DNA of 39,752 bases from Candidatus Poribacteria bacterium (lineage in GTDB: Bacteria > Abyssobacteria > SURF-5): positions 1-39,752 of the forward strand of contig JACRIR010000127.1 of assembly GCA_016215705.1 (NCBI GenBank), given 5' to 3'. The number at the start of each line of letters is the position of its first letter. Position 1 is the stretch's first letter. A program made the position numbers and the translations under genes. The notes beneath the pieces are model-generated. The model saw only the letters and a program-made list of their open reading frames with translations. It did not search any database and was not told where the DNA came from. This document shows, in pieces, positions 2,818 to 23,131 of the stretch.

Positions 2818-3145
2818 TCGCGTTCCTCCCTCAAATAAGGATATGTCTGCGATGCGCGCCGTGATTTCAGACGCTGATTCTACCGCAAAGTCGCAAGGAA
2901 CGCAAAGCCGGGAGAAACGAAAGTCTTAAGAGTTGCTGAGCCGATGCAGCAGCGCCATTGCACGCGAACTCGATTTGACATCCCGGCACATCCATGCCGC
3001 TTCACCCTGCGTTCATAGTCTCCCGCTCCACCCTGAGAAATGCGGTCTGATATAGTATAATGACATGCTGAATGATATCAAAATCAAGCTATCTATGCTT
3101 GTCTGACTTGGAAACAGCGAAGAAGCAATGGAGGATGGGCGAAAA
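2818..3145. other. Divergent intergenic region with a promoter but no gene
   Basis: This 328-base stretch separates the divergently read crotonase and TPP-enzyme genes. I see no credible ORF or RNA gene. It contains a candidate sigma70 promoter for the plus-strand gene (listed separately). The fragment CGCAAAGTCGCAAGGAACGC near 2884 looks like the degenerate intergenic repeats found elsewhere in the window. Confidence 0.6.
3033..3061 (+). promoter_or_regulatory. Candidate sigma70 promoter for the TPP-enzyme gene
   Basis: A perfect TATAAT lies at 3056-3061. A weak -35 (CTGAGA, 3033-3038) sits 17 bases upstream of it. The 5' leader to the ATG at 3146 would be about 75 bases. Confidence 0.5.
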
Positions 3146-4909
3146 ATGAAAATGAATGTCGCAACTGCTATCGTCAGGTTCCTCGAAAAAGCCGGTGTAG
3201 AAATAGCTTTTGGATACAACGGACACGGAAACTGGGCGATGCTCGACGCGATCGAGCATGAGTCAAGAATACGGGGCATCAAGGCTAATGCTGAGGATAC
3301 CGCCGTTCACATGGCCGACTGCTATTGGCGGATGCGCCGCCACGGGCCGCTGCCGGTGGTCCTGACAACGGTTGGTCCCGGCAACATGAACATATGCGCC
3401 GCCATGGCCAACGCTTTTTATGAATCCTCGGCCATGCTCATCCTCGCCGGAGCGGGCCCGACGCAATGGATGGACAAGGGTTGCTTCGAGGAATGCTATC
3501 GTTATGGGCCCGAAGAGTTCATCCAGGTGATCAAGCCTATCTGCAAGAAAGCCGCTCTGGTCACGAGGCCCGACACGGCTCTGGAGATCGTGGTGCGCGC
3601 ATATAAAGAAGCTCTTTCCGGCAGACCGGGTCCCGTGGTGGTTCAGTTGCCGTTCGATATTCAGCATACTGAAATCGAATTGGACGAAATCCCGATGCCC
3701 GACTTGTGGACGCACGTTCACCAGCCCGGCCCGGACCCCGAGGCAATCAATAAGGCGACCGAAATCCTGAAAGAAGCAGAGCGTCCCCTATTGCTGGCCG
3801 GAAGTGGAGTGCTCAATGCCGGGGCCGCCGGAGCGCTCATGGAGCTTGCCGAGGCATATCAAATTCCGGTGGGCACGACGTTTTCCGGGAAGGGGGCGTT
3901 TCCGGAAAACCATCCCTTGAGCGTGGGTACCATTGATCCCTCCGGCATGCGACACGGCTACCAGGCTGCCCGCGAATGCGATGTTCTCATCGCCGCCGGA
4001 GCAAGATTCCACGACTTCAACACGCTGGCGTGGTGCCTGTATCAAATCCCCGGCCAAACCCGACTGATCCACATGGACATCGATCCGATCGAGCTTTCTC
4101 GGAACTATCCCTCATCAGTCGCTCTCATAACGGACGCCCGGCTGGGATTGCAGGCGCTCAACCGAAGTCTGGCCGGCGCCAAATTGAAGTCAAAGGGATT
4201 CAAGGAATGGAGAGGCCAAATCGATGGTTGGCGCGCTGATTGGGTCGCGGAAATCGGAGAGCGCAGGAACGACCAGGGCATGCCGATCTCGAACGCAAGG
4301 ATTCTGCACGATGCCGCCAAAGTGGTCAGGGAAGTCGATCCCGAGACATCCGTGACATTCGATACCGGAAACATGCTGCTCTTTGCGCCGGCGTTCTTCG
4401 AGGCAACGTCCGTTCATATGGCTACCAACAACGGCCATTTTGCGCGAATGGGCTGGAGTTGCGGCGGGGCGCTCGGCGCAAAGCTGGCAAACAAGAAGCA
4501 TCCATCGCTGGCATTCATCGGAGACGGTTCGTTCATGATGACCGGCCTGGCGATCTCCACCGCCACCGAACACAATATAGCGGCCGTCTGGGTGGTCCTG
4601 AATAACCGTACCATCGGGATCGAGCGAGAGGCGATGGAAGCGATCTACGGGCGTTCCTCTTTCTGCGATACGAAAATGGCGGGAACCGGTGAGTCCTGGA
4701 GCCCCGACTACGTCAAAATGGCAGAATCAATGGGAGTCAAAGGCAGGAAGATCAAGGCGCCGGATGACTTTGGGCCGGCTCTCAAAGAAGCTCTGTTGAG
4801 CGACGCCCCATTTGTTCTCGATGTGGACGTGAACCCCATTGAGGAAGGTTACAGGTTGGCGCTTCTCCCTATCCCGATGAACTGGTATCAGCCAACATTG
4901 AGGGTCTAG
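3146..4909 (+). CDS. Thiamine-diphosphate-dependent enzyme, acetolactate synthase/IolD superfamily
   Basis: 587 residues with the three-domain ThDP enzyme architecture: PYR domain at about 1-165, central domain at about 185-320, PP domain at about 370-550. The catalytic Glu that activates ThDP is E50 in NAEDTAVHMADCYWR. The Mg/ThDP motif begins at GDGSFMM (about 459) and ends about 30 residues later with LNNRT. The N-terminal loop reads FGYNGHGNWAMLDA. The GHGN form resembles trihydroxycyclohexanedione hydrolase (IolD) rather than the GIPG of acetolactate synthase. TGGAGG at 3129-3134 supports ATG 3146 (MKMNVAT), matching the MKMTGGE start of the second TPP enzyme at 14304-16103. ATG 3128 is an alternative. 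No regulatory subunit (ilvN) or ilvC lies nearby. The substrate is unknown. The gene converges with the AsmA gene, 27 bases away. Confidence 0.85.
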   Translation: MKMNVATAIVRFLEKAGVEIAFGYNGHGNWAMLDAIEHESRIRGIKANAEDTAVHMADCYWRMRRHGPLPVVLTTVGPGNMNICAAMANAFYESSAMLILAGAGPTQWMDKGCFEECYRYGPEEFIQVIKPICKKAALVTRPDTALEIVVRAYKEALSGRPGPVVVQLPFDIQHTEIELDEIPMPDLWTHVHQPGPDPEAINKATEILKEAERPLLLAGSGVLNAGAAGALMELAEAYQIPVGTTFSGKGAFPENHPLSVGTIDPSGMRHGYQAARECDVLIAAGARFHDFNTLAWCLYQIPGQTRLIHMDIDPIELSRNYPSSVALITDARLGLQALNRSLAGAKLKSKGFKEWRGQIDGWRADWVAEIGERRNDQGMPISNARILHDAAKVVREVDPETSVTFDTGNMLLFAPAFFEATSVHMATNNGHFARMGWSCGGALGAKLANKKHPSLAFIGDGSFMMTGLAISTATEHNIAAVWVVLNNRTIGIEREAMEAIYGRSSFCDTKMAGTGESWSPDYVKMAESMGVKGRKIKAPDDFGPALKEALLSDAPFVLDVDVNPIEEGYRLALLPIPMNWYQPTLRV

Positions 4910-14303: not shown

Positions 14304-16103
14304 CTAAAGCGCTTCCTCCTCCCGCGCCTTCTCATATTCGTTGCGCCGCGCTTTCAGATACGTGGGCACAGGCACGTCCCACCAGCCGACAGCCGGGCTG
14401 CCGGTGTAAGGATGCTGCCGGTTGACTATCACCTCTACGACCGCCGGCTTGCCACTGTCGAGCGCGCGCCTGACAGCCGGTCTTATTTGGTCGGCCTTTG
14501 TCACGTGCTCGGCATGGCATCCGAATGCTTCGGCCACTTTCGCGAATTCGGGTGAGTAGGGCTTGCCCTTTTTCTCGAAATCGCACGCATACGCCCGCTC
14601 CTCACCGTACGCCGACATCTGCAAATCTCTTATTGATATCCAGCCCGAATTGTTCACCAGGAACACCACAACGGGAATGTCGTACTGCACAGCAGTAGCC
14701 ATTTCCTGCATTGTCATCATGAAATCTCCGTCGCCGATTGCGACCACTACCGGCGCATTCGGCTTGGCAAGCTTTGCGCCCATCGCTGCCGGAAGCGCCC
14801 ACCCCATTGTCGAAAAGCCGCCCGTCGTCAGAAGTGTTTTCGGCTTTGTGAAAGGAAACTCCTGCAGGATCTGCGCCTGCGAGTTGCCCGACGAGCACGC
14901 CACAATTGCCTCCTCCGGCAGTTCTTCGCGCAATTCCTTGAGCGCGCGTGAAAGCGTGGGCGGCGTTCGATTGGCCTCCTGCAGTTTACCGACAGCCGCA
15001 AGCCATTTCTTCCTGAGCGCCTGTATCTCCCTGAAATATTCCCCCTTCTTCCGTCCGGCCTTGTACCCGCTCTGGATAATGGCGTTCAGCAAATCGGCCA
15101 GCACGATTTTCGCGTCTCCGATCAAGCCCACTTCAATGGGATAATTCTTTCCAATCTCGGCTGCGTCAACGTCGGCATGGATCAGCTTCGTCGGCGGAAT
15201 TGAGAAACTCACGCCGTGGCGATAGGAAGACGCGGTCTCGTCGGCGAATCTGCATCCGACCGCGAGGAGTACGTCGGCCTGCGAGCACAGAGTGTTGCCG
15301 ACTGTCGTGCCTTTGCTGCCGGCATGCCATCCGTACAGCGGGTGGTTCTCCGGGAAACAACTCTTACCCATCATGGTTGTGACAACCGCCGCCCCGATAA
15401 ATTCCGCCAGCACCTTTAACTCTTCCCACGCCTGGGAAGAAATCACTCCTCCGCCTGCTAATATCACAGGTCTTTCCGCCGTCGCAAGTAATCTCGCCGC
15501 TTGCTCGACGGAAGCAGGGTCGGGCTTCACTCGAGTTGCGCATTTGTGTTCCTGCGGATCGGGAATCTTGACGTCTGCGCAGTCAGCCTGAACGTCCATC
15601 GGCAGGTCTATCAGCACTGGTCCGCGCCTGCCGCACAGCATATGACTGAATGCGCGCTGCATGATATGGGGCAACTGAGCGACGTCCACAACCTGCCAAT
15701 ACCGCTTGACGACAGGCTCGAGCACTCGAGGAAAATTCGCGCTGTGCGTCCGCTCGATCTCCTGGAGCACTCCGCGCCCGAACATGTGCACGTGTGTGTC
15801 GCCGGTCAAAGCGAGGACGGCGGTCGAATCGACATATGCCGTCGCGAGCCCGATGGCGGTGTTGATCGCGCCAGGCCCGATCGAAGTGAAAGCCGCAAGC
15901 GGTCGGCCGGAAATCCTGTAGTAGCCGTCGGCAAGGTGTACCGCGCTCATCTCCTGCCGCACCTGGATCACTGAGATTCTGTCCTTCGCTTTGAATAGCG
16001 CGTCAACCAGCCCGAGGCAGCCATGGCCCGGGATGCCGACGGCATACGGCACTTTCTCCTTTACAAGATATTCGACCACGATCTCTCCGCCGGTCATTTT
16101 CAT
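14304..16103 (-). CDS. Thiamine-diphosphate-dependent enzyme, acetolactate synthase/IolD superfamily
   Basis: 599 residues. GAAGGAGA lies 8 bases before ATG 16103 (MKMTGGEIVV); the frame extends 16 codons upstream but without a better site. The PYR domain carries GIPGHGCLGLVDALF and the catalytic Glu in VRQEMSAVHLADGYYR. The PP domain carries GDGDFMM and ends the cofactor motif with VNNSGW. The stretch beginning VLQEIERTHSANFPRVLEPV resembles IolD more than IlvB, but I infer this from memory of motifs. No ilvN or ilvC is present. It lies 70 bases downstream of the IlvD/Edd-type gene on the same strand, so the pair may be co-transcribed. Together they suggest carbohydrate-acid or cyclitol breakdown or a variant branched-chain pathway. 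Confidence 0.88.
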   Translation of the reverse strand: MKMTGGEIVVEYLVKEKVPYAVGIPGHGCLGLVDALFKAKDRISVIQVRQEMSAVHLADGYYRISGRPLAAFTSIGPGAINTAIGLATAYVDSTAVLALTGDTHVHMFGRGVLQEIERTHSANFPRVLEPVVKRYWQVVDVAQLPHIMQRAFSHMLCGRRGPVLIDLPMDVQADCADVKIPDPQEHKCATRVKPDPASVEQAARLLATAERPVILAGGGVISSQAWEELKVLAEFIGAAVVTTMMGKSCFPENHPLYGWHAGSKGTTVGNTLCSQADVLLAVGCRFADETASSYRHGVSFSIPPTKLIHADVDAAEIGKNYPIEVGLIGDAKIVLADLLNAIIQSGYKAGRKKGEYFREIQALRKKWLAAVGKLQEANRTPPTLSRALKELREELPEEAIVACSSGNSQAQILQEFPFTKPKTLLTTGGFSTMGWALPAAMGAKLAKPNAPVVVAIGDGDFMMTMQEMATAVQYDIPVVVFLVNNSGWISIRDLQMSAYGEERAYACDFEKKGKPYSPEFAKVAEAFGCHAEHVTKADQIRPAVRRALDSGKPAVVEVIVNRQHPYTGSPAVGWWDVPVPTYLKARRNEYEKAREEEAL

Positions 16104-16173
16104 GTGGATTGTCTCCTTCTGCCGTCCTTTATTGCGGGCATGATGGCGCATCGTGTCCCCAATTTTGCCACCT

Positions 16174-17895
16174 TCATGTAAATCGTTTCCTTTTGCTACG
16201 ATTATTCGGGGACACCTTGCCGCAAGGTGTCCCCGAATAATCCAAGCGAGCTCCTTCCGACGCGCTTCCGACAGTTTGTTGATATATACCCAAGAATCCC
16301 TTTGCCATCTTCGGCGTTGGCGGCTTCCATACGCGCATTCGCTTCGCTATTTCTGATTTCGTGAGCTTGACATTCAGTTTTCTCTCGGGAATATCAATCT
16401 CAATCAGGTCGCCGTCTCTCACGATGGCAAGCGGCCCTCCCTGCGCCGCCTCCGGGCTTACGTGGCCGATGCAAGGTCCCCGCGTCGCGCCCGAATAGCG
16501 TCCGTCGGTCACCATCGCAACCGAGTCGCCCAAACCCATTCCGACGAGCATGGCTGCCGGTATGGACATCTCTCGCATGCCCGGGCCGCCTCGCGGGCCT
16601 TCGTATCTTATAACCAGTACGCTGCCCGGCTCTACCTTCTGCCGGGTCAGATGCTCGCGGACGTCTTCCTCTCGCTCGAAAACCACCGCCGGTCCTTCAT
16701 GTTTCATCATCTTTAGACTCACGCCGCTTGTCTTCACGACTGCGCCTTCAGGCGCGAGGTTACCATAGAGAACCGCGATGCCGCCCTCTTCAGCGAGCGG
16801 CTTGCCGAGCGGCGCGATGATCTCTCTCTCGGGCGCGTGCGCCGACCGCGCGATCTGTCTCAGAGTTTTCCCCGAGACCGTCATCTGGTCCAGATGAAGC
16901 AGGGGCGACAATTCCTTCATAAGGCCCGGCACTCCTCCCGCGTCATGAAAATCGAGCAGGTTGAACGCAGAGGCGGGTTTGAATTTGCAGAGTAGGGGAG
17001 TCGAACGGCTCAAACGATCGAACTCCTCCAAAGGAAGCTTGATGCCGAGTTCGGCGGCGACCGCAGGCAAATGCAGCACGGCATTCGTCGAGCCGCCAAA
17101 CGACAACAGCACTCTGACGGCGTTCTCGAACGACGAGCGCGTCAGAAAACTCGAGGGCTTCATCTTTCGCCTAACCAGTTTCACAATCTGTTTGCCCGTT
17201 GCCCGAGCCAGGCGAGAGCGCGCGGGGTCGACCGCCGCGATGGTGGCCGTGCCCGGGAAGGCAAGCCCCAGTACCTCGAGCAGACAGCACATCGTGCTCG
17301 CGGTTCCCATCATGTTGCAGACGCCAACGCTCGCGCAAGTGGTCGACTCTATCTCGTCGAACTCCTTTTGCGTCAGTTTGCCGGCCACAAACTTTCCAAT
17401 CGCTTCCTTGATGTCGCACGTCACCATGTCGCCGCGCGGCATCATGATGCCGCCCGTGAAGAATATTGAGGGGATATCGAGCCTGAGAGCGGCCATGAGC
17501 ATCCCGGGTATGATCTTGTCGCATGAGCCGATGAGCACGAGACCGTCAGCCTGATGTGCGCCTGCCATCAGTTCAACCGACGCGGCAACCACGTCGCGTG
17601 AAGGCAGAACGTAATGCATTCCGCGCCCTTGAGCGATCCCATCGCAAGGCCCGATAGTGTTGAACTCGGCGGGCATGCCGCCGGCTTCCCAGATTCCCTC
17701 TTTGATGCGCTCGGCGGTCTCTCTGAGATGATAATGGCCGGGGTTCATCTCCGACCACGAGTTGGCTACCGCAATCAATGGCTTCCTCATGTCCTCGTCG
17801 GAGTACCCGACCGCCTTGTACAATGCCCGGCGGTAAGCGTCATCGGTTGTTTTATTTTGGATTTTGGATTTTGGATTTTGGATTGAAAGCGTCAT
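16174..17895 (-). CDS. ilvD: IlvD/Edd family dehydratase (dihydroxy-acid dehydratase-like)
   Basis: 573 residues. Reaction class: Fe-S dependent dehydration of a 2,3-dihydroxy acid (DHAD) or an aldonic acid (Edd-type). The three cluster cysteines are visible: C84 ([11 protein letters not shown]), C125 (GSCDKIIPG, with the adjacent Lys that is carbamylated in related enzymes) and C193 ([10 protein letters not shown]). The C-terminal DHAD block is intact: [20 protein letters not shown]. Both ends are odd. Residues 4-15 ([12 protein letters not shown]) are encoded by a 7-bp tandem repeat, and the final residues after GSASEGA, where DHADs normally end, come from a REP-like palindrome. The substrate cannot be settled: the neighbour is an IolD-like TPP enzyme, not ilvC, so the ilvD symbol is by family only. 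Confidence 0.88.
16200..16242. repeat. REP-like palindrome, copy 2, inside the ilvD-like reading frame
   Basis: Perfect 20-base arms (GATTATTCGGGGACACCTTG, 16200-16219, and complement 16223-16242) around a 3-base centre. It lies within the last 23 codons of the dehydratase frame. A partial relative (GTGTCCCCAA) lies at 16153-16162. Confidence 0.95.
17856..17883 (-). repeat. Heptanucleotide tandem repeat ATCCAAA x4
   Basis: Four perfect TTTGGAT units on the plus strand (ATCCAAA on the minus strand). They are translated as the N-terminus of the dehydratase. The same unit recurs near 18097-18112, at 21657-21670 and singly at 11101-11108. Confidence 0.93.
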
Positions 17896-18788: not shown

Positions 18789-20774
18789 ATGCCGTCCGCC
18801 GAGGACTCCAAACTCGACAAAAGGCTTGATGAGGATGCCATCTCCGTGCAATCTAACCCCCCGCTGGACGAGTCATTAGACTCCGGAAAGCCGATTACTC
18901 CTCCGGACGAGTCGCCGGATGCCGGAAAGCCGACTCCCCCTCCCGAAAGTGTGTCGCCCCCATCTCCCCAAGTCGAAAAAGAAGCGCGCCCGGATGATAA
19001 GCAACCTCAGGAATTCAAGGCCGGCGACACAGTCGGCATCTATCGAATTGAAAGAATGATTGGCAAGGGGGGAATGGCGACCGTCTATAGAGCGTTCGAC
19101 ACGTCCACGCAGCGCGTTGTCGCTCTGAAAGTGCTCAAGAAGAGGTTTGCCTCGAGTCTCAAGGCTTTGGCTCGCTTCGACCGGGAATTCCTCGCTCTCG
19201 AGTCGCTCAGTCATCCCAATATCGTGCGGGTGCTCGATAAGGGGGTTGAGAATGGCGCTAATTATTTCGTCATGGAGTATGTTGACGGCGCCAGCTTCTC
19301 CCGCTTGCTCAGGCATAGAAAACTGGCCTTCAATACCAAGGCGCAAATATTACTCCAGGCCGCCGCTGCGCTCGATTACGCCCACAGGAAAGGGATAGTT
19401 CATAGGGATGTAAAACCTGACAATATACTCATCGACCGCACCGGCCGCGCAAAAATAGCCGACTTCGGCATCGCCCAGATAACGAAGTCCCGACTTCCGC
19501 TCACTTCGATAACGGTCGTCAGCAGTTTCATGGGCACCGCCGATTATATGGCCCCCGAGCAGCGCGTGGATGCGAAATCCGTTGACCATCGCGCCGACAT
19601 ATTCTCCTTCGGCGTGATGCTCTATGAAACGTTTACCGGACGCCTCCCCATCGGCAATTTTTCTCTCCCAAGCCAGTTGAATCCGGAAGTCAGCAAGAGG
19701 ATGGATGGCATTATCCTGAGAGCCCTACGCCAGAATCCCGCTGAACGATATCAGTCCATGGCGGAACTGGCTGACGACCTGCGGCGGGAAACGCAGACTT
19801 CGCAATGGAGCAAACTTGCCGCCCGCATGTCGCTCATCCTTCAGGTCGAAAGTTGGAAGAGAGTGTTCCAGATCAGGGCCATAGGGGCAGCGGGCTTGTT
19901 TGCAGTTGTCCTGGCCGCTCTCATATGGCTTCTTTCGACAGTCGGCAAGTCAAGTCCTCCCTCCACTGACCTCAAACAGGCCGAAACAAGCGAGACCCCG
20001 GCGGGTCAAGCAACAACGGAGCCGTCCGGCGAATCCCTTCCTCCGCAGCCCGCAAACACGCCCGAGAATATGGTCTATGTTCCCGGCGGCGATTTCATAA
20101 TGGGGAGCGAATCCGAGTTCAGCGACCAGCGCCCACGACACAAAGTGAATCTGAGCGCCTACTTCATCGACATATATGAAGTCACAAATGCGGAATATGA
20201 GAAATTCGTGGAAGCCACAGGGCGTCCCCAGCCGTTGGTCAAGGAATTCTGGGCCGAGCCGTTCAACTGGCACAACGGCACGTATCCTCCCGGCAAGGGC
20301 GACCATCCCGTCGTGCTTGTGAGTTGGAATGACGCGGCCGCCTATGCGAAGTGGGCCGGCAAACGCTTGCCGACGGAAGCGGAATGGGAAAGAGCCGCGC
20401 GCGGAGCCGACGAGCGCAAATGGCCTTGGGGAAATAAGTGGGAAGTGGACAGGTGCAACACGGCAGAAAGCTTCCTCAATTCGACGCAGCCCGCGCATTC
20501 CTTCGCCAAAGGCAAGAGTCCCTTCGGATGCTTTAACATGGCAGGCAACGTAATGGAATGGACTGCAGACTGGTTCTCCGAGAGCTACTATCGCGATGCG
20601 CCGTCCAGAAATCCGCTTGGCCCCCTGACAGGCGCGTACAGAGTTGCGCGCGGCGGCGCATGGGACAGCAACCTCAATCTTTACGTCCGCACCAGCTACC
20701 GCCAGTACTTCTCGCCCGATGCAAGAAACTCCGACCTAGGCTTCCGTTGCGCAAAAGACTACGTTCGGAAATAG
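18789..20774 (+). CDS. Membrane Ser/Thr protein kinase fused to formylglycine-generating-enzyme-like domain
   Basis: 661 residues. ATG 18789 is preferred; an ATG at 18741 lies only about 15 bases from the predicted +1. Residues 1-75 are Pro/Asp-rich and probably disordered, with an imperfect repeat (SGKPITPPDES, AGKPTPPPES). The Hanks kinase domain (about 80-345) is complete: GKGGMATVY, VALKVLKK, HRDVKPDNIL, DFGIAQ, APEQR. One membrane helix (about 363-386, AAGLFAVVLAALIWLLS) leads to an FGE/SUMF1-like domain (about 425-660): YVPGGDFIMGS, RLPTEAEWERAARG, NMAGNVMEWTADW, DLGFRCAK. The second domain should be extracytoplasmic and probably senses ligands; I see no clear catalytic Cys pair for formylglycine formation. 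The kinase would relay this inward. Targets are unknown. Confidence 0.93.
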   Translation: MPSAEDSKLDKRLDEDAISVQSNPPLDESLDSGKPITPPDESPDAGKPTPPPESVSPPSPQVEKEARPDDKQPQEFKAGDTVGIYRIERMIGKGGMATVYRAFDTSTQRVVALKVLKKRFASSLKALARFDREFLALESLSHPNIVRVLDKGVENGANYFVMEYVDGASFSRLLRHRKLAFNTKAQILLQAAAALDYAHRKGIVHRDVKPDNILIDRTGRAKIADFGIAQITKSRLPLTSITVVSSFMGTADYMAPEQRVDAKSVDHRADIFSFGVMLYETFTGRLPIGNFSLPSQLNPEVSKRMDGIILRALRQNPAERYQSMAELADDLRRETQTSQWSKLAARMSLILQVESWKRVFQIRAIGAAGLFAVVLAALIWLLSTVGKSSPPSTDLKQAETSETPAGQATTEPSGESLPPQPANTPENMVYVPGGDFIMGSESEFSDQRPRHKVNLSAYFIDIYEVTNAEYEKFVEATGRPQPLVKEFWAEPFNWHNGTYPPGKGDHPVVLVSWNDAAAYAKWAGKRLPTEAEWERAARGADERKWPWGNKWEVDRCNTAESFLNSTQPAHSFAKGKSPFGCFNMAGNVMEWTADWFSESYYRDAPSRNPLGPLTGAYRVARGGAWDSNLNLYVRTSYRQYFSPDARNSDLGFRCAKDYVRK

Positions 20775-20810
20775 TTCCCCGATCTGCGTGAATAGTTCTC
20801 CTAAATATGT

Positions 20811-20883
20811 AGGGCCGCAATTCATTTCGCCCTTGGATGCATTCCCATCTCTTTGTAGGGGCGACTCGGTGAGTCGCCCTTAC
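20811..20883. repeat. Two GGGCG-type palindromes
   Basis: A decayed copy AGGGCCGCAATTCATTTCGCCC (20811-20832) matches the element at 13003-13023 with several changes. Next to it is a clean copy, GGGCGACTC-GGT-GAGTCGCCC (20859-20879), flanked by GTA and TAC. The gap 20775-21016 otherwise holds no gene. Confidence 0.8.
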
Positions 20884-21016
20884 CCAAGAGGCTATTCGCA
20901 TCCCTGAAAGCGCATACGCATCCTCCCGTTGGTGTGAATTTATTCGCACAATTCGTGCAGGAAACATCGCCCCAAAATAGCAACGTGAATCCACGATCTC
21001 AATCGTGACTACCGCC

Positions 21017-21055
21017 AAAAAAACAAAAAGCCGCTCACGTGGAAACGTGAGCGGC
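21017..21055 (-). terminator. Rho-independent terminator of tRNA-Leu
   Basis: Minus strand: GCCGCTCACGT, short loop, ACGTGAGCGGC (21055-21030), then TTTTTGTTTTTTT. It begins 3 bases after the tRNA 3' end. Confidence 0.95.
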
Positions 21056-21058
21056 AAG

Positions 21059-21142
21059 TGCGGGGAGGGGGACTTGAACCCCCACGAGATTGCTCCCGTC
21101 AGCCCCTCAAGCTGGTGTGTCTGCCAGTTCCACCACCCCCGC
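21059..21142 (-). tRNA. tRNA-Leu (anticodon GAG)
   Basis: 84 nt, class II. Acceptor GCGGGGG pairs with TCCCCGC (one G-U), discriminator A. Anticodon loop TTGAGGG gives GAG, reading CUC/CUU. The variable arm pairs CGGGAG with the TCTCG side, and the T arm is GGGGG-TTCAAGT-CCCCC. CCA is not encoded. Confidence 0.96.
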
Positions 21143-21152
21143 AAACCAATTC

Positions 21153-21181
21153 ATTATAACCACCACCAATCAAAATGTCAA
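21153..21181 (-). promoter_or_regulatory. Consensus promoter of tRNA-Leu
   Basis: Minus strand: perfect TTGACA (21181-21176), 17-base spacer, perfect TATAAT (21158-21153). The -10 ends 10 bases before the tRNA, so the 5' leader is only a few bases. Confidence 0.95.
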
Positions 21182-21694
21182 AAAACGACAAAACCTCTCT
21201 TATCCGCAGATTACGCCGATTCTCCCAGATTCTTCTCTGCGCAAATCTGTATTGCTCACTGTCAATTTCTTGAGTTTCTTTCGCGATTTTCTTGAACACA
21301 TTTGGATAACTCATTGTCCTGAAATGGATTCCCGCTCTTGCGGAAATGACCCCGACGGTTGTCCATTCGCGTAATTCGTGTTCCCAATAGTTTTTCTTTT
21401 TCCCCGAATCCGTGTTAATCCGTGTGAATCTGTGGATAAGAATGCCTCTTCTTTTTCTTCTTCCTCCCAAATCCATTTCCTTGTTTCTTCTTTTCTTGGC
21501 AACTTGGTGATAAATTCTCTTGCTTTTATTTGGTTGCGGCTTCGCCGCGCTCTGCAATCTGCGGATTGTCATTTTTTTCTTTGCCTTCTTCGCCTTTTTA
21601 TGATTTAATTCTGTTCAGTCCAGAATCCAAAACCTGTCCTCGACTCTGATCGAGAATCTAAAATCCAAAATCACTCGAGAGGAGGCTACTTCAA
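21182..21694. other. Gene-free stretch of dispersed repeats
   Basis: No credible gene. It holds ATCCGCAGATTACGCCGATT-type words, an ATTCCC element in reverse (21325-21350), ATTCGTGTTCCC, CCCCGAATCCGTG with a T-rich run (shared in part with 30225-30300), dispersed repeat copy B (21482-21552, matching 17993-18058) and heptamer units ATCTAAA-ATCCAAA (21657-21670). The ribosome site GAGGAGG of the next gene is at 21679-21685. Confidence 0.75.
21325..21350. repeat. ATTCCC..GGGAAT element, reverse copy
   Basis: TGGATTCCCGCTCTTGCGGAAATGAC reads, on the minus strand, as GTCATTTCCGCAAGAGCGGGAATCCA, matching the elements at 10946-10972 and 13532-13558. Confidence 0.8.
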
Positions 21695-23131
21695 ATGGCC
21701 CTTCGAACCCCCGAAGAATACCGGAAAAGCCTGCGCGACGGAAGACGCATCTACATGCTCGGCGAAAAAGTGGCGGATGTCACTGCGCACCCGCTGCTCA
21801 AAGTCGCGGTCGAAACAGTGGCGCAGGATTTTGCGCTCACGGAATCCAACGACCCCGAAATCCGAAATCTCTTTGTCTTTCCTGACAACGAAACAGGCGA
21901 GCCGATCAGCCGCTTCTTCAAAACACCGGAAAACACCGCTGACCTCGAAAAAAGGAGCGAGATGATCGCGCGCTCCATCCGCCTTACCGGTGGTCTGCCG
22001 TTCGGTAAGGACGTCGGCACTGATTGCCTGAATGCGGTAATGGTCGTCGCCGACCAGATGGGCAATGAGGAGTACAAGGAGCGCGCTAAAAACTATTTGC
22101 GCTTCATCCGGAAGAACGATTCCGCCATGTGTGGCGCCGTGACCGATGCCAAGGGCGACCGTAGCAAACCGCCCTCAAAACAGGCGCATCCCGACTATTA
22201 TCTTCACGTCGTGGACAAACAGAAAGACGGCATCGTAGTCAAAGGCTGCAAAATGCACATAACGAGCGGGCCGGTGGCAAACGAGATCATTGTCACTCCC
22301 ACCCGGCAAATGCGCGAGGACGAGGGCGATTATGCCGTCAGCTTCGCGATTCCCGCGAACGCCGAGGGGATCACCATGATATGCAGGCCTGGACGCGGCG
22401 AGCAGACTCCCTATGAGTTCCCCTCCGGCGCGCCAGTGCGCACTCTATCCGAAGCGATGGTTGTGTTCGACAACGTCTTTGTCCCATGGGAGCGCGTCTT
22501 CATGTGTGGCGAATGGCAATTCTCGATGCTGCTTGCATACACGTTTGCGAGCTTCCACCGGTTCACCGCCATCAGCTACAAGATTCCGATTGTCGAGCTC
22601 ATTGCCGGCTGCGGCGTCGCAATGGCCGAATCGAACGGCCTCGAAAAGGCCGGCCACATTCGCGGGAAACTCGCGCAGATGGCGGCATACGTCGAGACGC
22701 TCAAAGCCCTTACCCGCGCCGCCGCAAGAGACCCAATCATGTACGGCGGCATCGCAATGCCCAACCCCCTCGTCGCCAACATGGCCAAGCTCCATTTCGC
22801 AAGCGGCTACCATAACTTCATTCAACTGGTTCAGGACGTTTCAGGCGGAATCATCACGACCTTCCCCACATATGAAGACTGGAACAATCCGGATACGCGC
22901 GGCTTCATGGAGCATTACCTGGGCGGCTCCGACAAATTCACAACAGAGGAGCGATTGCGACTAATCCAGCAAACTCACCGCTGGACCGCGTCCGCCGAAC
23001 ACGCCCACATGGAAGTCACCACGGTTCACGCAGAAGGCTCGATGGAAGCCCAAAAGATGATGATACTCCTCGAGGCGCCCCTCTCGGAATACGCAAACCT
23101 GGCAAAACAAATGGCCGGAATCAGTGGCTGA
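21695..23131 (+). CDS. 4-hydroxybutyryl-CoA dehydratase-like flavoprotein lacking Fe-S ligands
   Basis: 478 residues, full length for the HpaB/AbfD fold. Conserved family blocks: TPEEYRKSLRDGRRIYMLGEK, TDAKGDRSKPPS, DGIVVKGCKMHITSG (about 178-192), VVFDNVFVPWERVFMCGE (256-273), VHAEGSMEAQKMMI. From memory of the clostridial AbfD sequence, its cluster ligands Cys99, Cys103, His292 and Cys299 align with P102, D106, H288 and Y295, and its active-site Tyr296 aligns with A292. Only the His survives, so a [4Fe-4S] cluster is unlikely and radical dehydration of 4-hydroxybutyryl-CoA is not expected. The usual HpaB hydroxylase motif is also absent. It probably binds FAD and a CoA ester, with unknown chemistry. 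GAGGAGG lies upstream of the ATG. A secreted CocE-type hydrolase follows. Confidence 0.88.
   Translation: MALRTPEEYRKSLRDGRRIYMLGEKVADVTAHPLLKVAVETVAQDFALTESNDPEIRNLFVFPDNETGEPISRFFKTPENTADLEKRSEMIARSIRLTGGLPFGKDVGTDCLNAVMVVADQMGNEEYKERAKNYLRFIRKNDSAMCGAVTDAKGDRSKPPSKQAHPDYYLHVVDKQKDGIVVKGCKMHITSGPVANEIIVTPTRQMREDEGDYAVSFAIPANAEGITMICRPGRGEQTPYEFPSGAPVRTLSEAMVVFDNVFVPWERVFMCGEWQFSMLLAYTFASFHRFTAISYKIPIVELIAGCGVAMAESNGLEKAGHIRGKLAQMAAYVETLKALTRAAARDPIMYGGIAMPNPLVANMAKLHFASGYHNFIQLVQDVSGGIITTFPTYEDWNNPDTRGFMEHYLGGSDKFTTEERLRLIQQTHRWTASAEHAHMEVTTVHAEGSMEAQKMMILLEAPLSEYANLAKQMAGISG

Follow-up and report, generated by a model that had tools for sequence, protein, structure and literature searches.

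A group of AbfD-like proteins without cluster cysteines, with a glutamate at the apparent acyl-CoA dehydrogenase base position

The gene and its authenticity

The window, a stretch of 39,752 nucleotides from a genome whose lineage is Ca. Abyssubacteria as described earlier (PMC6121073), contains an intact open reading frame with exact boundaries for a protein of 478 amino acids (Table 1). The gene stands alone, with an opposite-strand tRNA-Leu gene upstream and a gene for a CocE/NonD-type hydrolase downstream. The two other genomes in the family each have an orthologue (85% and 78% identity) with identical substitutions at the ligand sites discussed below, which are likewise maintained in about 20 more relatives at 41-68% identity. 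These substitutions are therefore neither chance events nor assembly errors. The gene is under strong purifying selection, with dN/dS values of 0.05 and 0.09 against the two orthologues (at dS of 1.7-2.0, near saturation); together with the orthologues themselves, these values rule out a sequencing error or a pseudogene. A search for viral relatives of the protein found none.

Table 1. Features of the window discussed in the text or read alongside the gene
Feature	Position	Strand	Comment
Acetolactate-synthase-like ThDP enzyme	3128-4906	+	by-eye reading
Acetolactate-synthase-like ThDP enzyme	14304-16151	-	by-eye reading
IlvD-like dehydratase	16174-17895	-	after the ThDP enzyme gene 14304-16151
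Open reading frame	20674-21144		overlaps tRNA-Leu (gag); probably spurious
Terminator-like hairpin	21055-21030		strong; beyond tRNA-Leu (gag)
tRNA-Leu (gag)	21058-21142	-
Open reading frame	21099-21572		overlaps tRNA-Leu (gag); probably spurious
Promoter TTGACA-17-TATAAT	21181-21153		perfect; of tRNA-Leu (gag)
Shine-Dalgarno AGGAGG	21680..21685	+	9 nt 5' of ATG, read from sequence
CDS, cluster-less AbfD-like flavoprotein-fold enzyme, 478 aa	21695..23131	+	ATG 21695 to stop 23131
L101-P102-F-G-K-D106 codons	21995..22012	+	position of AbfD C99-x3-C103
H288-R-F-T-A292-I-S-Y295-K296 codons	22556..22582	+	position of AbfD H292, Y296, C299, K300
H445-A-E447-G-S449 codons	23027..23041	+	matches acyl-CoA dehydrogenase catalytic E-G-T; AbfD H-G-A-G-S

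Family membership and the former ligand positions

A Pfam search (E 1e-5) returned HpaB_N and HpaB, both full length, as the sole matches, and the acyl-CoA dehydrogenase domains PF00441, PF02770 and PF02771 had no match in the protein at this threshold. By sequence, the best solved relative is AbfD, a 4-hydroxybutyryl-CoA dehydratase (1u8v, 258 bits), followed by 6vjr (231 bits) and HpaB (2yyg, 171 bits). Comparison of the AlphaFold model (pLDDT 95.5, pTM 0.92) also places AbfD first, with Z 46.0 and an rmsd of 2.2 over 472 residues, against Z of about 41 for HpaB and about 23 for acyl-CoA dehydrogenases. The initial annotation, made from the sequence alone, had matched the protein to the AbfD family along its length, and both measures bear this out; its description as a full-length flavoprotein holds for the length, by Pfam and by fold, whereas FAD content is something that we infer from the fold. 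The best NCBIfam match, HpaB-1 (TIGR02309), falls well below its cut-off (195 vs 480 bits), and the equivalog cut-off of TIGR02310 is also missed (137 vs 885 bits).

AbfD (1u8v, and 6vjr from N. maritimus) shares with the window protein its full-length fold, 32% identity and the positions of His292 and Lys300, which are kept as H288 and K296. In contrast, of the four cluster ligands of AbfD (Cys99, Cys103, His292 and Cys299) only the histidine is retained: on the 1u8v mapping C99 corresponds to L101, or to P102 by spacing, given one residue of alignment slack, C103 to D106 and C299 to Y295. The AbfD active-site residues Tyr296 and Glu455 are replaced by A292 and T442, and Ala460 by E447. The cysteine replacements, the change of Tyr296 to alanine and the retention of H288 as sole ligand had all been read correctly in the initial annotation, which did not include the replacement of Glu455 and overlooked the new glutamate. 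HpaB (2yyg), at 24-25% identity, has the same fold and likewise lacks an iron-sulphur cluster, but it lies on another branch, and its Arg100, Tyr104 and His142 correspond to K105, C111 and G147 (with one to two residues of slack around 104-111), in agreement with the earlier claim that the HpaB motif is missing.

Of the six cysteines left in the protein, four are often present in close relatives and none is invariant among the 21 aligned sequences of its cluster-less group. The ligands have therefore not merely shifted to other positions, the outcome that the initial annotation had named as speaking against it. Within this group (A2), H288, R289, T291, A292 and Y295 are invariant, and in 25 of 25 related sequences position 106 is D or E while His288, A292 and Y295 are fixed. 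Together, residues 106, 288 and 295 may make up a triad linked by hydrogen bonds or a site for a single metal ion.

Distribution and phylogeny of the cluster-less group

Relatives with the cluster-less motif are found in Syntrophaceae, Desulfobacterales (Desulfobacterota), Dehalococcoidia, Lokiarchaeota and Abyssubacteria; one orthologue (L016) comes from the isolate Desulfatitalea alkaliphila. Of 198 genomes sampled from the phylum to which L008 belongs, 9 have a match at E < 1e-150; L078 matches L004 (Candidatus Abyssobacteria SURF_17). Each checked genome with a cluster-less gene encodes one to seven additional family members. The window assembly has three members in all, namely the window gene and two paralogues. 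One paralogue (L001) has all AbfD ligands and Glu455, and the other (L002, G000:C227:5893-7347) has the four cluster ligands and the motif HGGGS, lacks Glu455 and is probably not a 4-hydroxybutyryl-CoA dehydratase either.

A tree was built with the ligand and Glu columns removed and HpaB as outgroup. The full-ligand rows form a single group (starred support 99), and the window protein lies outside both this group and the HpaB branch (each at a starred 99). It belongs instead to a cluster-less group, as the tree check proposed earlier had asked, with a close group of 16 to 18 rows (starred 99 and 97). A second group (starred 98), with the motif HCMG...HRLFGTCKM, lacks C99; in most of its rows C103 is retained and a Cys follows the His at a distance of six residues, as in the full-ligand HRQSYACK rows. 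Every one of the 54 rows in the cluster-less and sister HRLFG groups has Glu at the 447 position, and all of them lie on one side of a branch with an unstarred support of 73.9, whereas the 31 readable full-ligand rows all have Ala or Gly. A clade of all cluster-less rows was not recovered, because L080, L086 and L071 (VVLIK...HRFTA) lie at the unresolved base of the tree, but such a clade is not rejected (p-AU 0.105); for the Cys-bearing rows as one clade, p-AU is 0.046.

The initial annotation had described the ligands as lost, which the tree does not establish. Since the full-ligand rows are one group and C99 needs a single change, a gain in the AbfD branch explains the pattern as well as a loss does on the HpaB-rooted tree, and the complete ligand set may be such a gain. 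The sister HRLFG group, with C103 and probably C299, counts against this reading. As Glu and C99 require one change each and C103 two, both cluster loss and cluster gain are possible.

Other arrangements of the family were seen in passing. A full-ligand paralogue (IQRCMG) directly precedes an HRLFG-type paralogue without C99 in L022, L023 and L024 (at about 6.4-9.5 kb in the latter two); the paired paralogues are possibly subunits of one enzyme. The paralogues L092:1468-2883 and L060:4620-6065 represent a further, unassigned cluster-site variant, with three Cys, a Cys spacing of x4 instead of x3, the His ligand changed to Tyr and K300 to V.

A literature search with sparse coverage of subscription journals found no description of the cluster-less AbfD-like group, and no known cluster-less or 'type 2' dehydratase was found in three papers (PMC7819960, PMC12794621, PMC13101534). 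A second copy of the dehydratase, Msed_1220, has been reported without an assigned role, with no ligand information given (PMC7078158).

Glu447 and candidate chemistries

E447 lies in the sequence context H-A-E-G-S-M-E-A-Q, where AbfD has H-G-A-G-S-P-Q-A-Q and the acyl-CoA dehydrogenases of the window genome have Y-E-G-T-N-Q-I-Q. In the AlphaFold model it sits in the loop that joins helix 434-445 to helix 450-460. VIA-align comparisons with seven acyl-CoA dehydrogenase structures ended at the residue pairs (window protein-dehydrogenase) 466-395 (3mdd, 4p13), 467-396 (1egd, 1ege), 466-387 (1jqi), 466-420 (8sgp) and 466-411 (2vig). Traced back over the last 19-20 residues, which are assumed to align gap-free, these end points put E447 on residue 376 of MCAD, 368 of SCAD and precursor numbers 401 and 392, the catalytic glutamate in each case by established numbering. 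An hhalign comparison of a narrow group profile with the genome's own acyl-CoA dehydrogenases also placed E447 on the YEGT Glu; in two of three local runs, with wider profiles, the 447 position was not placed there, and global hhalign against acyl-CoA dehydrogenases gave no result. MCAD and SCAD have in common with the window protein the core of the fold, the E-G-S/T motif and a Glu at the catalytic position, but they are shorter than the window protein by about 100 residues and only 13-20% identical to it. The structural end points and the motif together suggest that E447 occupies the position of the acyl-CoA dehydrogenase catalytic Glu, a positional argument that provides the strongest clue to the chemistry. 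The protein merits neither AbfD nor HpaB as a name, and with the cluster cysteines absent and a Glu at the dehydrogenase base position, the usual annotation is probably wrong.

The genomic surroundings vary between loci, and no conserved operon was found around the cluster-less genes. Of about 21 independent loci, 7 have an acyl-CoA ligase gene at most four genes away, with roughly one expected by a rough estimate that uses only the density in the window genome (26 in 5.47 Mb). The seven are the window, L010 with L020, L013, L015, L019, L160 and L161; in L013, L019, L160 and L161 the ligase is directly adjacent on the same strand. Genes for enoyl-CoA hydratase (two loci), 3-hydroxyacyl-CoA dehydrogenase (two) and acyl-CoA dehydrogenase (one) also occur nearby. 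L015 has the fullest such row, of 3-hydroxyacyl-CoA dehydrogenase, the cluster-less gene (after one short ORF), enoyl-CoA hydratase, acyl-CoA dehydrogenase and ligase. Inspection of the neighbourhoods, as the initial annotation had advised, thus reveals ligase and beta-oxidation genes often close by but no fixed operon, and its verdict of unassigned chemistry is incomplete, as the group has an invariant Glu at the dehydrogenase position and its gene surroundings point to acyl-CoA substrates. At L161:6759-9711 a VVLIK-type cluster-less gene is flanked by genes for an acyl-CoA ligase and for a phenylphosphate carboxylase-like decarboxylase of the UbiD family, neighbours that hint at an aromatic substrate. 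No ETF genes were found beside the gene; the window genome encodes two ETF alpha subunits, which is not specific.

The most likely function is that of a cluster-free, flavin-dependent acyl-CoA dehydrogenase, and we tentatively propose an FAD-dependent acyl-CoA enzyme of the AbfD/HpaB family that performs dehydrogenation via E447 as in acyl-CoA dehydrogenases. This proposal draws on the group-wide absence of the ligands, the invariant E447 at the catalytic position, the ligase neighbours and the two ETF alpha subunits; the FAD, the acyl-CoA substrate, the direction of the reaction and the electron acceptor are inferred. FAD would be seated as in AbfD, with Asp106, His288 and Tyr295 occupying the former cluster pocket. 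Glu447 would abstract the alpha-proton of the acyl-CoA thioester and a hydride would move to FAD, replacing the dehydration by cluster and ketyl radical in AbfD, and the electrons would exit to electron-transfer flavoprotein. Against a dehydrogenase stand the far closer sequence and fold relationship to AbfD and HpaB, the missing Pfam match to acyl-CoA dehydrogenases, the two wider hhalign profiles, and the variable neighbourhoods with no adjacent ETF genes.

The main rival, which we regard as unlikely though worth serious weight, is a redox-neutral acyl-CoA flavoenzyme, either a delta-isomerase of the vinylacetyl-CoA type or a C4-eliminating lyase, in which E447 and His288 would act as an acid/base pair and FAD would not be a net oxidant. 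AbfD exposed to air loses its dehydratase activity and keeps its isomerase activity, and the AbfD-equivalent His288 and K296 are retained here. In L015 the row includes a conventional acyl-CoA dehydrogenase, which leaves no evident need for another. A precedent is the gamma-butyrobetainyl-CoA TMA-lyase BbuA, described as acyl-CoA dehydrogenase-like, with a putative flavin cofactor, about 10% identical to AbfD and eliminating trimethylamine from C4 without net redox change (PMC8364193). BbuA is a flavoenzyme of the acyl-CoA dehydrogenase superfamily for which the passages considered report no cluster. However, the proposed base of AbfD, E455, is T442 in the window protein, and the new Glu lies at the dehydrogenase position.

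A single metal ion in place of the cluster, held by Asp106, His288 and Tyr295, seems improbable: these metal-capable residues (D or E at 106) are conserved at positions that hold one cluster in AbfD, but a hydrogen-bonded triad would account for equal conservation. That the enzyme is an HpaB-like hydroxylase using oxygen is very improbable, since, despite the shared fold and HpaB-1 as best NCBIfam match, the score is far below the cut-off, Arg100 and His142 are absent and Tyr104 is not kept, the protein is outside the HpaB branch and the hosts are largely strict anaerobes; no flavin reductase partner HpaC was seen among annotated neighbours. That the protein is a 4-hydroxybutyryl-CoA dehydratase after all, with its cluster on some of the six remaining cysteines, is scarcely credible given that the group has no invariant cysteine and that Tyr296 and E455 are also missing.

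AbfD is the marker by which the hydroxypropionate/hydroxybutyrate and dicarboxylate/hydroxybutyrate cycles of carbon fixation, as well as 4-hydroxybutyrate fermentation, are recognised, and homologues at 32-40% identity that cannot bind a cluster would yield false positives. The AbfD-like group without cluster cysteines is widespread and apparently uncharacterised, with its Glu at what is probably the acyl-CoA dehydrogenase base position. It is conceivable, if somewhat doubtful, that the AbfD/HpaB family hides under dehydratase and hydroxylase annotations a large cluster-free branch in anaerobes that represents an independent second origin of acyl-CoA dehydrogenases (or of isomerases), with a sister branch whose partial ligand set records an intermediate state. 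If the reading of Glu447 as a dehydrogenase base is true, cluster-radical chemistry and ordinary acyl-CoA dehydrogenation would be linked on one scaffold, and the switch between them would be addressable by single mutations.
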